30,701 nt of DNA from a virus: the IMG/VR virus record IMGVR_UViG_3300032235_000511, positions 1 to 30,701 of that record; one strand, written 5' to 3'. Shown piece by piece: positions 17,925-28,168 of this stretch. The number at the start of each line of letters is the position of its first letter. The stretch's first letter is position 1. The notes under the pieces were generated by a model, which had not been told where the DNA came from, made no database searches, and saw only the letters and a list, made by a program, of their open reading frames with translations. The position numbers were made by a program, and so were the translations under genes.

Positions 17925-17927
17925 AGC

Positions 17928-17961
17928 CGCCCCCTATCGGCGGTGATGCCGATAGGGGGCG
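17928..17961 (-). terminator. Terminator after the capsid genes
   Basis: CGCCCCCTATCGG (17928-17940) pairs with its exact complement at 17949-17961 to form a 13-bp, GC-rich stem with an eight-base loop, starting 14 bases after the stop of the decoration gene in the leftward direction. The following minus-strand bases (GCTTCGTTT) form only a weak T-tract, so it may be a partial terminator that trims capsid-gene messages before motif P1 restarts transcription. Confidence 0.65.
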
Positions 17962-17975
17962 GGTTGGTGGTTGGA

Positions 17976-24698: not shown

Positions 24699-24744
24699 CA
24701 GCCCCGTATGGTGCAGTAGTTGTGTGATTAGTGGGGAGGCAGGC

Positions 24745-25491
24745 ATGGCTTGGACTGAGGCGGACACTGCGCGATATTGGGCTGAAGTCAATGACTTCGA
24801 CAACCGGTTGCGGTGGGCGATGGAGCGGGGGGAGGCCGGCGTTGACCCCTTCGGGGCGCAAGTGCGCCGGGTTGCCGCCAGACAGGTTGAAGAACTTGAT
24901 CTTGAACGCGAGAAAGAACTTGACGAGCGAGAGCAAGAACTTGTCTTATTGACCGAAGCCAAGAAACTGATGCCTCACGACCTCCTTATGGTCATGGAGG
25001 CTCGCATCGCTGGAACTGGCCCAACCGCACTCGCCAGACAACTTGGGATGCGGCAGGCAGGGGTTTCCTGGAACTGGTTCAAAGGACAGGTCTATCTTGC
25101 CTTCTGCACCCGGCTGGTTCGGGATGGGGTCACCTACGGCAAGATCTTGTCCACCACCAAACACCCTGAACTTGCGAAGTCATACATCAAGACCTGGTCC
25201 ACAACTTACGCACACCAAGAGCTTGGTGCCAGGAGCACCAGCCAAGGGCGAGCCTACCACCGGATCAAGGGGGACGGGTCTGGCCTGGCTAGGATCCTCA
25301 ACCGGAACTGCGGAGAACTTGCGGAGGTTGCAAGAGAACTTGCAAACAAGAACTCGTCGAAAATGCTGACGAGGTTTGCTGATGAGCTTGCCGCTCGCGC
25401 TGAGGTGGTGGCCGCTCGGCGGGCGGCGGGGGCGGCGACCAAAACCAGGCACAACCGGGCTCGCCGCCGGGGTCGAGAGCGTAACGGCTGA
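24745..25491 (+). CDS. Helix-turn-helix protein, candidate phage regulator, 248 aa
   Basis: The ATG at 24745 is preferred over an upstream GTG because GGGGAGG at 24732-24738 is well placed before it. The 248-residue product has an acidic helical N-terminus (EELDLEREKELDEREQEL, residues 49-66), a helix-turn-helix resembling sigma region 4 or related HTHs near residues 82-116 (GTGPTALARQLGMRQAGVSW), and a strongly basic C-terminus (TKTRHNRARRRGRERNG). It is the first rightward gene, divergent from the terminase operon, so it is well placed to control both units and perhaps the five late motifs. A replication-initiator or small-terminase role is also possible. Confidence 0.65.
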   Translation: MAWTEADTARYWAEVNDFDNRLRWAMERGEAGVDPFGAQVRRVAARQVEELDLEREKELDEREQELVLLTEAKKLMPHDLLMVMEARIAGTGPTALARQLGMRQAGVSWNWFKGQVYLAFCTRLVRDGVTYGKILSTTKHPELAKSYIKTWSTTYAHQELGARSTSQGRAYHRIKGDGSGLARILNRNCGELAEVARELANKNSSKMLTRFADELAARAEVVAARRAAGAATKTRHNRARRRGRERNG

Positions 25492-25507
25492 GGGGTCTTG
25501 CCGTTAC
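25481..25507 (+). other. Short hairpin over the stop codon of the HTH gene
   Basis: GTAACGGC (25481-25488) pairs with GCCGTTAC (25500-25507) around an 11-base loop that contains the TGA of the HTH gene. The eight-base stem has no following T-tract. It may help to separate the HTH message from the RHH-replication cassette, but the support is modest. Confidence 0.3.
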
Positions 25508-25517
25508 ACCTTCGGCC

Positions 25518-25579
25518 AGTCGATTACTTGGGAGACTGTGCCAAACAGCTATTAGGCACAGTCTCCCAAGTAATCGACT
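25518..25579. repeat. Perfect inverted repeat IR1 upstream of the RHH gene
   Basis: Two 25-base arms (25518-25542 and 25555-25579) are exact reverse complements around a 12-base spacer. Each arm contains GATTACTTGGGAGACTG. A related, less perfect pair (IR2, 25935-25995) stands after the RHH gene. The 87-base stretch between IR1 and the RHH start is AT-richer and contains the only TATATT of the area. Possible uses are operator for the RHH protein, binding site for the replication protein at an origin, or a transcript hairpin. Length and perfection rule out chance. Confidence 0.9.
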
Positions 25580-25600
25580 CTGTTTGTTCAATCGCGTTGC

Positions 25601-25606
25601 TATATT
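25601..25606 (+). promoter_or_regulatory. Possible -10 box of the RHH gene promoter
   Basis: TATATT stands 60 bases before the RHH start in an AT-rich patch. The -35 position (about 25578-25583) falls on the right end of IR1 and has no good TTGACA match, so an RHH or Rep protein bound to IR1 would cover the polymerase site. This fits an autoregulated promoter but rests on one box. Confidence 0.35.
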
Positions 25607-25665
25607 TTACTCAGTAGTGTAGAGTGGGTAAGGTGATCCACACCTCCTCCCCCTCGGAGCACCGA

Positions 25666-25923
25666 ATGTCCAAGACCCGCACCCGCCTTGCCTCCCGTGG
25701 CAAAAGGACCACCCTCTCTCTTGCTGCCTCTGCTATGGAGGTCGTCCGTGCTCAATCCCTGATCGCTGGGGCACCCTTTGGGGCTTGGGTGGAGACGTGC
25801 ATCGAGGTCGCCATGCTCCACCACGCAGAGCTGCGGGCCGCGATCCAGTCCAAAATCGACGCAGAGCTTGCACAGCGTGACGGTCGCACCACAAACCTTG
25901 ATACCACCGACAGTGACGGGTAA
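25666..25923 (+). CDS. Small ribbon-helix-helix (CopG/Arc-like) protein, 85 aa
   Basis: The ATG at 25666 has CGGAG six bases upstream; an in-frame GTG at 25624 would give a longer form but lacks a better site. The 85-residue product has a basic start (SKTRTRLASRGKR), a short strand (RTTLSL, residues 14-19), a helix (AASAMEVVRAQSLIAG), a turn at G-A-P-F and a second helix (GAWVETCIEVAMLHHAEL), the strand-helix-helix order of CopG/MetJ/Arc dimers, then an acidic tail. Inverted repeats flank it on both sides and the replication gene follows, as in plasmid copG-rep modules. The fold is inferred from pattern only. Confidence 0.6.
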   Translation: MSKTRTRLASRGKRTTLSLAASAMEVVRAQSLIAGAPFGAWVETCIEVAMLHHAELRAAIQSKIDAELAQRDGRTTNLDTTDSDG

Positions 25924-25934
25924 ATCGCCCTCTT

Positions 25935-25995
25935 GTCGATTACTTGGGAAACTGTGCCTAGAAGAAGGATTGGCATTGTCTCCCGAATAACCCCC
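25935..25995. repeat. Imperfect inverted repeat IR2, related to IR1, before the primase gene
   Basis: The left half (25935-25958) matches the IR1 arm in 23 of 24 positions. The right half (25972-25995), inverted after a 13-base spacer, matches the same arm in about 17 of 24. IR2 ends 19 bases before the primase start, which itself lacks a strong Shine-Dalgarno, so binding of a protein or folding of the RNA here would affect primase expression. Confidence 0.85.
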
Positions 25996-26014
25996 CTCTC
26001 TCGGTGCCTGAACC

Positions 26015-28168
26015 ATGTTGACGACTTTCGGACCTATCGGCGGCTGGACCGCTTCGACCCCCGGCGCTCCAGAGGCAGCCCTTGTGCAGCCATGGCCCGC
26101 CCCACCGACCGGCCTGGAGCACGCCCCCCGGCTCGTGCCCGTTGACCCTTCGACCCCCGGCTCTGCTCGGGACCTCTTCGCCACCACTGGCCTTTTCGCT
26201 GTAGGCGCTGCCTCCCACACCATCCGTGACCTTCGGGGCATCGACTGCCTTGGGCTCGATGCCGACGCTTCCGATTGGTTGGTTCACGAAGGCCGGTTCT
26301 CCCAGCCAGGCCTGGCCAAAGTCTGGATGGCGCAGGGTGGCAGCACCGAGGTTGAGGAACTTCTGGTCCAGCATCGCGAACTTGTGGCGCAAGTTGTTCA
26401 GGAAGCTGGGTTCGGCGTAACTCGAATGGTCTACTCGGGCTATGGCCATCACGTCTGGATCCACCTGGATCGACCAGTTCTGTCCACTGACCCGAACTTC
26501 GGTGCAGTTCTGCTTGGTGTTGAGGCGATGGTCGATGTTTTGAACCGGCGCGCTGGCTTCAAGATCTTCGACACCGCGGCCAAGGATGCCGGAACCCGCC
26601 TGCTCCGCCCGATTGGGGCGTACAACTCGAAGCGTGGAGCCCACCGCGTCACCAAACTTGCCGGGTGGAGCGATTACCGCCTGGCCGTTGAAGATCTGGT
26701 GCAGGTTGTCGCAGCCTACACCGGCTCCAACGGCATCAAAATCGTCGCCAAAGCTGCGGGAGGTCGCCCCCTGGTAACTCGGACTGGCCCGCAAGGCCAG
26801 TCTGGCGGCCGATATGAAGTGCGATACGTCGACCTCGCCACCATGCGGACCAACACTGGCAGAACTTACGCCAGCATCGCTGAGGCACTCCAGCCAGGGC
26901 ACGGAGTACAGGCACCTTCCCCCGAAGGTCGTGATGGCGACCACGGCTGCAAAGTCGTAAAATCCACGTCGGGGCAGGTCGAGGTTATCGACTTCCCCCG
27001 TATGGCCCGCTACATCCACTGCCCGCCCGCCCCCCTGCTGACCACAGACACTGAGCTTGCAGACTTTTTCAGCGAGGTTGTGGTCCCCGCCGTGAACCGG
27101 CACGCTGAGTGGCTGGCCGAGCGGGATGCAGCATACAACCTGACCGCAGAGGGCCGCATCCAGACGCGGTTGTCGCAGGCCGCAGACCGCCACCTGACGG
27201 GGCACGCCTCTTTGGAGCGGGAGCCCGTGCAGCTGCCGGACAGCCTGGACGACCTGCTGCGCGAGGTTGAGGTTTCCAGCCGCAAGCACTGGTCCGCCCA
27301 GCAAGTTCGGGGGCTCGCAGCTGCGCGGAAGGCTTGCCCCACTGGCATGGCCCTTTTCAGCCGGGGGCAGGACCAGACCTCCATCGACGCTACGAGCCGG
27401 GCGTGCCTCTCCTACGGCTGCGCGGTCTGCGGGGCTTACAGCTTGGCTTCGGCCCAGGCTGCTTATTTGGGCACCCTCGACCACCTCGTGAGCATCGGGT
27501 GGGTCTGCCGCACCATCCCTGCCGAGCACGCTGGATCATCCTCTTTGGAGGCGTGGATCCAGAAATCCCCGACGACCCGTGGGTGGACTGGCATCCCGAT
27601 TGCCGACGACTATATCTACATTTTCCACGCTGACACCGTTGAGGACGCGCCAGCCAAGGCGAAAAGGGGCAAAGTGGCGTCCTGGGTCGCTGCCTATCAC
27701 GCAGCCGAGGAGCTGCCCATTGAGGCGCTGATGGGCATGAGCCGGGCGTCCTGGGAGGCTCTACAGCCCTCCCAGGTGGCTCAGGCTGGCGTCCGGATGC
27801 TCGTTGGCTCCCAGCACGTCAGGGGGCTTATGGCAGCAGCACGGGCCATGCTGCTGGGTCGTAGGCCCTCCCTTGCCTCCCCTCCCGCCCACGTCAAGGC
27901 TCCAGGCAGTGCGGTCATGCTGGTGGCCACCCCGACCACTGCGGCCCAGGCGGTGGGCCGCCGGCTCCAGACCGACACCAGGGTCTTGACCCACATCGAC
28001 CGTGCCGGCGGGGTAAGCGCAAAGATCACGGCAGGGACGGGGGTTCCCGCGTATGATGCACTGCTGGCCCAAGTGGAGGCTGGCGTACTTCGGGCCCCCC
28101 GGCAGCGGAGCAGCGGGTGGACGGTGCTGACCGGCATGGCTGACGACGAACTCGAAGACCTGATCTAA
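26015..28168 (+). CDS. Archaeo-eukaryotic-type primase / replication protein
   Basis: A 717-residue protein and the only recognisable replication gene. The first 210 residues carry the AEP primase motifs: D82-A-D84 in CLGLDADASDW (motif I), SGYGHHVW (141-148, motif II) and D186 in FKIFDTAA (motif III), followed by TRLLRPIGAYNSKRG, the R-x-G-x-x-N-x-K pattern of phage and plasmid primases. Further on is a cysteine cluster C464-x4-C469-x2-C472 (possible zinc site), and residues about 655-706 look like a winged helix (GGVSAKITAGTGVPAYDALL). No helicase Walker motifs are seen. It may prime, or also polymerise, at an origin near IR1/IR2 and recruit host enzymes. Downstream genes follow within ten bases. 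Confidence 0.8.
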   Translation: MLTTFGPIGGWTASTPGAPEAALVQPWPAPPTGLEHAPRLVPVDPSTPGSARDLFATTGLFAVGAASHTIRDLRGIDCLGLDADASDWLVHEGRFSQPGLAKVWMAQGGSTEVEELLVQHRELVAQVVQEAGFGVTRMVYSGYGHHVWIHLDRPVLSTDPNFGAVLLGVEAMVDVLNRRAGFKIFDTAAKDAGTRLLRPIGAYNSKRGAHRVTKLAGWSDYRLAVEDLVQVVAAYTGSNGIKIVAKAAGGRPLVTRTGPQGQSGGRYEVRYVDLATMRTNTGRTYASIAEALQPGHGVQAPSPEGRDGDHGCKVVKSTSGQVEVIDFPRMARYIHCPPAPLLTTDTELADFFSEVVVPAVNRHAEWLAERDAAYNLTAEGRIQTRLSQAADRHLTGHASLEREPVQLPDSLDDLLREVEVSSRKHWSAQQVRGLAAARKACPTGMALFSRGQDQTSIDATSRACLSYGCAVCGAYSLASAQAAYLGTLDHLVSIGWVCRTIPAEHAGSSSLEAWIQKSPTTRGWTGIPIADDYIYIFHADTVEDAPAKAKRGKVASWVAAYHAAEELPIEALMGMSRASWEALQPSQVAQAGVRMLVGSQHVRGLMAAARAMLLGRRPSLASPPAHVKAPGSAVMLVATPTTAAQAVGRRLQTDTRVLTHIDRAGGVSAKITAGTGVPAYDALLAQVEAGVLRAPRQRSSGWTVLTGMADDELEDLI

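Follow-up and report, generated by a model that had tools for sequence, protein, structure and literature searches.

A candidate exchangeable primase cassette under negative control in a phage family, with a repeated symmetric element in one phage and antisense-facing terminator-like hairpins in its relatives

In the window (the whole 30,701-nt stretch of viral DNA analysed here, IMG/VR record IMGVR_UViG_3300032235_000511) a perfect inverted repeat (IR1), a small gene for an RHH-like protein, an imperfect copy of the repeat (IR2) and a gene for an AEP-type primase follow one another in series, an order and a set of coordinates that agree with the original prediction (Table 1). We tentatively interpret the stretch 25518-28168 as an early replication cassette that is exchangeable and negatively controlled, IR1 and IR2 being likely regulator sites, and judging from the sequence comparisons described below we place this interpretation a little short of an even chance. 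A small gene for an RHH-like putative repressor would be followed by the primase gene, and sequences located at both gene starts would restrain the supply of primase. The expectation that the same symmetric element stands in both leaders of this phage also held, with IR1 before the small gene and IR2 before the primase gene.

Table 1. The candidate cassette and the ORF upstream of it, in window coordinates; gene starts are those of the ORFs.
Feature	Coordinates	Strand	Description
255-aa ORF	24724..25491	+	5' of IR1; its transcripts would enter IR1
IR1	25518..25579	.	Perfect 25-bp inverted repeat, 12-nt spacer
Promoter match, small gene	25597..25625	+	Sigma70-like TTGCTA, 17 nt, TAGAGT; 8/12, weak
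Small gene	25666..25923	+	85 aa; RHH-like from residue pattern and position
IR2	25935..25990	.	Imperfect IR1 copy between small gene and primase gene
Primase gene	26015..28168	+	AEP-type, 717 aa; lacks the VapE-like domain that some relatives have

The two arms of IR1 (25518-25542 and 25555-25579) are complementary at 25/25 positions. The left arm of IR2 (25935-25958) is identical to the IR1 arm at 23/24 positions and its right arm (25972-25990) matches IR1 at 15/19, the IR2 spacer being 13 nt; together the two repeats supply three half-sites of 24 bp, nearly identical to one another, that flank the small gene. A search of the window with the 15-mer GTCGATTACTTGGGA, allowing up to three mismatches, identified four sites where 0.5 were expected, three of the four inside IR1 or IR2. 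Searches farther afield, with the 24-mer and with a pattern for the gapped palindrome, gave no match in IMG/VR besides this phage, no further copy of IR1 or IR2 was present in the window, IMG/VR, or the phage or plasmid collections, and nothing meaningful among phage and plasmid records matched the stretch 25490-26020. Rfam contained no family matching at the cassette; a sub-threshold Rfam match to Acido-1 at 25428-25505 was put down to chance. Downstream of IR1, 17 nt separate its end from the best -35 match for the small gene, and the repeat does not overlap the promoter match; in this IR1 is unlike the CopG operator, which covers its promoter. A stricter promoter scan did not recover this match, and all our promoter calls presuppose sigma70-type sites. 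The ATG of the small gene is preceded by GGAG. As a separate observation, the primase start at 26015 has no clear Shine-Dalgarno sequence, and GAGG can be read from the sequence before the starts of several relatives.

We consider it most likely that IR1 and IR2 are bound by a regulator, with a purely RNA-based explanation close behind. In the latter, which we regard as somewhat unlikely, both repeats would act as RNA: IR1 would be a long-stem terminator or processing hairpin insulating the operon from the 255-aa ORF, and IR2 either an mRNA hairpin acting by attenuation or a copy that has decayed. The fold of the IR1 region fits this well (-53.6 kcal/mol, z -8.1, equalled by 0/200 shuffles), as do its position 27 nt past the stop codon of the 255-aa ORF, its fairly U-rich sense tail (CTGTTTGTTC, nT 1.59, at about the 95th percentile) and the presence of other intercistronic hairpins in this phage (17927-17962 and 2226-2258). 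However, such a role leaves unexplained why three half-sites should have stayed almost the same over 24 bp, intrinsic terminators seldom have stems as long as 25 bp, and IR2 forms a weak hairpin as RNA (z -1.5) that has a U-tract on neither strand (nT 0.13 for the sense tail and 0.01 for the antisense tail) and is not terminator-like. Weighing these points, we see IR1 as a likely regulator site that is possibly also a sense-strand terminator.

Our searches for a close relative of this phage found none, and relatives were reached via the large terminase, which gave a broad contig group (the longest ~30 kb) whose terminases were, in the first set, 50–57% identical to that of the window. Among bacterial genome contigs a single terminase relative was found, in L090 (JAKMDG010000547.1, 40% identity); this 4-kb contig has been binned with a MAG of the Longimicrobiales, which hints weakly at the host. 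The order of a small RHH-like gene followed by a primase gene was seen in L007, L014, L026, L035, L036, L039, L047, L057, L063, L087, L089, L091, and L102, and many relatives have a 60–85-codon gene upstream of the primase gene with a similar strand-helix-helix pattern. A profile of these small proteins aligned with CopG in register by hhalign, at low probability (E 0.0033, probability 9.7%), and its best matches in the PDB were weak ones to the omega repressor (E 0.28) and ParD (E 0.88). For the window's own 85-aa protein the predicted RHH identity is that of a candidate: the residue pattern fits, and the RHH label is a pattern match, but the single-sequence AF2 model (pLDDT 73.5) has two helices and zero strands, this model matched no fold in the PDB, and the protein is missed (E=97) by a profile built, leave-one-out, from the small proteins of the relatives. 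Searches of Pfam, PHROG and NCBIfam with it gave no match. An RHH dimer needs less than a 24-bp perfect arm, a point against our interpretation. The upstream 255-aa ORF looked convincingly similar by eye to a 250-aa ORF of L089, yet only short collinear matches were found (E 0.015), and the L089 ORF is at most a possible weak relative.

The predicted AEP type of the primase is borne out by motifs, as GLDAD, SGYGHHVW and GTRLLRPIGAYNSK fall on columns invariant with six relatives; when the protein was tested for membership of the AEP superfamily, all three of the motifs sought were present, namely DxD, SGxGxH and one further conserved motif. The structure model was unusable (pLDDT 35) and the assignment as a putative AEP primase is one by motifs; the 717-aa protein matched no Pfam family, and an HUH family sought in it gave no match. 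The primases of L007, L026, and L102 carry a VapE-like domain (PF05272), and their N-terminal AEP motifs align with those of the window protein. In this they are like the AEP primases with a VapE-like domain of phages and islands and unlike the primases of the window (26015-28168), L089 (636-2993), and L091 (5872-8229), in which a search for the VapE-like domain gave no match and which have in common a C-terminal region with conserved cysteines. In L063 and L087 the primase type is a different protein again. The prediction that the phage is without a polymerase also agrees with our scan, in which no polymerase family appeared among the proteins covered.

In 13 relatives, belonging to nine lineages by a hand count and not from a tree, a GC-rich hairpin lies between the small gene and the primase gene, starting 1–17 nt past the small-gene stop and usually ending 11–45 nt before the primase gene. 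It has a perfect stem of 10–13 bp in 11/11 relatives tested (each P <=0.006 against dinucleotide shuffles), and the stem sequences vary from lineage to lineage. Across all 13 hairpins the antisense tail has 5–7 T in 10 (nT 1.4–4.2) and the sense tail 0–2 T in 10 (nT <=0.31), while gene-end controls reached nT 1.4 in 12.5% and nT 2.5 in 1%. When we scanned up to 75 nt downstream of RHH-like genes, we identified a hairpin in 12/40, with an antisense U-tract in 11/40 and a sense U-tract in 0/40; the same scan of other ORFs gave 23/967, 7/967, and 4/967, respectively (antisense terminator, 11/40 vs 7/967, Fisher 2e-12, relatedness ignored). The possibility that the gap holds a terminator on the sense strand was rejected on testing, and the idea that these are ordinary intercistronic terminators was abandoned once the strand asymmetry of the U-tracts emerged. 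Judged by stem and tail, the gap hairpin of the relatives looks like an intrinsic terminator for an RNA against the primase leader, facing away from the primase. The hairpin is missing in many members of the group where the small gene overlaps the primase gene or other ORFs intervene, and a scan of the window's own gap for a comparable antisense terminator found none. By eye, five relatives had a candidate antisense promoter at 42–44 nt from the hairpin; the pooled test for a common distance gave P=0.16, and we therefore do not claim a common position. A loop consensus seen in relatives, GG..GCA..CC, was deemed too weak.

Alternatively, the gap hairpin of the relatives could be an mRNA stability or processing element between co-transcribed genes, its antisense U-tract arising from the A-rich context of the stop codon. 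Perfect hairpins do occur between structural genes as well (at window position 17927 and in L045, L069, and L087), and the antisense promoter search gave nothing significant; however, gene-end controls are seldom as U-rich as these tails, the sense tails are strikingly T-poor, and the hairpins between structural genes lack the antisense bias, and we consider this explanation unlikely. Some features elsewhere in these genomes may be recorded in their own right. The structural-gene hairpin of the window (17927-17962, minus strand) marks a second conserved intercistronic site: here and in L045, L069, and L087 a perfect hairpin of 10–16 bp stands between an MNLxDL-type gene and the gene that comes after the one for the major head protein, without antisense U-tract bias. 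A perfect 14-bp hairpin (2226-2258) just past a 74-aa early ORF has an antisense U-tract (nT 2.78), as in the relatives' primase-gap hairpins, and a 232-aa early ORF (1066-1764) has a sub-threshold LysR-type HTH match (E 1e-5).

Upstream of the small gene, significant palindromes were found in the window and in L089, L014, L039, L063, L036, and L007; the same test identified no significant upstream palindrome in L091, L026, L102, L035, or L087. The L089 palindrome, GCACGCGGAC-N10-GTCCGCGTGC, surrounds a -10-like TAGGAT, and CTATATATAG is a recurrent motif of this upstream region in L036 and the contigs akin to it. We compared the gap with the upstream region of the small gene in 11 relatives and nothing significant was shared (clearly so in ten, with L089 borderline at P=0.05), by which the possibility that the gap hairpin is a copy of the upstream sequence was rejected. 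Because the gap hairpin of the relatives does not repeat their upstream sequence, the two-copy element is, as far as these comparisons reach, peculiar to this phage. One symmetric operator serving both leaders, as originally predicted, is thus not a conserved device: the prediction would have had the repeats kept in close relatives that have both genes, and with no sharing between gap and upstream region in the 11 relatives, distant as these are, the two-copy element is absent from them. IR2 occupies the site at which the relatives have their gap hairpin.

The layout invites comparison with the pMV158 family of Rep_2 rolling-circle plasmids. The antisense RNA of pMV158, RNAII, is 48 nt long, starts within the 5' end of repB and spans the region before the repB start; it is made up of a 5' tail and, in the gap between copG and repB, a terminal hairpin that is GC-rich and carries poly(U) (PMC4485353, PMC5703833). 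As in these plasmids, a small RHH gene (RHH-like in the phages) lies directly 5' of the replication gene, the gap hairpin of the phage relatives is GC-rich, its antisense strand carrying the U-tract, and palindromes lie near the start of the small gene. Unlike in pMV158, the replication protein here is an AEP primase and not an HUH nickase, this phage lacks the antisense terminator and has a repeated symmetric element in its place, and antisense RNA and repression in the phages are predictions from sequence. The likeness to pMV158 that was predicted therefore survives as a layout of the phage family, in the gene order and in the antisense-facing terminator of nine lineages, and not as a shared operator in two leaders, which is not conserved. 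The cassette falls outside the pMV158 family: it has no HUH nickase, and the window is without the antisense terminator. A second system, in the Synechocystis plasmid pSYSA, has ssr7036, asRNA1 and slr7037 (CyRepA1), asRNA1 being a cis-antisense RNA located at the small gene (PMC9978351). There too, a small-protein gene is followed by the gene for a Rep with primase and helicase domains, but asRNA1 is 153 nt long and lies over the small coding sequence and not in the gap before rep (PMC9978351); pSYSA is moreover a plasmid, and our likening to it is by description. Among open-licence papers, we found this layout undescribed in phages.

We propose that in the relatives a short antisense RNA would begin in the 5' region of the primase gene, span the primase leader and end at the hairpin, limiting translation of the primase as RNAII does that of repB in pMV158, while the small protein would repress its own promoter at the upstream palindromes. 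In the phage of the window, IR2 as a copy of IR1 would stand in place of the missing antisense terminator, which makes IR1 and IR2 most likely binding sites of a regulator. This cassette regulator, the 85-aa protein or another factor, would bind both repeats and act on both leaders, and IR1 may in addition stop transcription coming from the 255-aa ORF. That the 85-aa protein itself binds IR1 and IR2 is a proposal, and the shared two-leader element is not a conserved one. Taken as a whole, the picture would be of a phage family that meters its AEP primase by a dual brake, an RHH-type autorepressor and a cis-antisense RNA, in an exchangeable replicon cassette, with the antisense arm replaced here by a duplicated symmetric element before both genes; we hold this broader picture to be possible and more doubtful than the cassette interpretation with which we began.

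A natural exchange bears on the cassette as a unit. L087:4887-17642 and L089:3396-16151 come from two different metagenomes, yet share 99.99% identity along 12,756 nt, and the identity stops 4 nt short of the L089 palindrome. Beyond this break the small gene, the hairpin and the primase gene of the two are non-homologous, similarity returns at 90% past the primase gene, and the order of small gene, hairpin and primase gene is unbroken in both. We read this as an indication that the cassette and its control sequences travel together, with the proviso that a chimera is possible because both are metagenome assemblies. Upstream of the L089 palindrome are two 52-bp direct repeats (L089:3416-3522; 94% identical, 55 nt apart), which are also present in L087.

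The exchange also touches on an explanation in which the inverted repeats are a replication origin or priming sites of the primase. In RSF1010 the inverted repeats of ssiA and ssiB lie near the gene for the primase RepB', and a plasmid origin may lie upstream of cop. Hairpins or palindromes adjoin the AEP primase gene in many relatives and the palindrome switches together with the primase between L087 and L089, but no GC skew switch was found at the site, the lineages have no sequence in common, and the gap hairpins of the relatives, unlike the sites of RSF1010, look like one-strand terminators and stay put across very different primases; we consider this explanation improbable. It is still more improbable that IR1 and IR2 play no part in regulation and are copies of a small MITE- or REP-like repeated insertion, as two similarly oriented copies flanking one gene and absent from the relatives might suggest, for the early genes scanned gave no transposase match, no more copies were found in the window, IMG/VR, or the phage and plasmid collections, and IR2 sits exactly at the hairpin site of the relatives.

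Regulator binding at IR1 and IR2 predicts that the 85-aa protein would bind two defined DNA elements in this phage, and the antisense reading of the gap hairpin that a short antisense RNA would be found at a defined place in the relatives. To our knowledge, phages are not usually thought to restrain their own replication protein in the manner of plasmids. If our interpretation is true, an exchangeable unit in which a primase gene is joined to a small repressor-like gene and a terminator facing the antisense direction would link the replication control of phages to that of plasmids, and would point to timing, or to restraint of copy number, in the course of infection.
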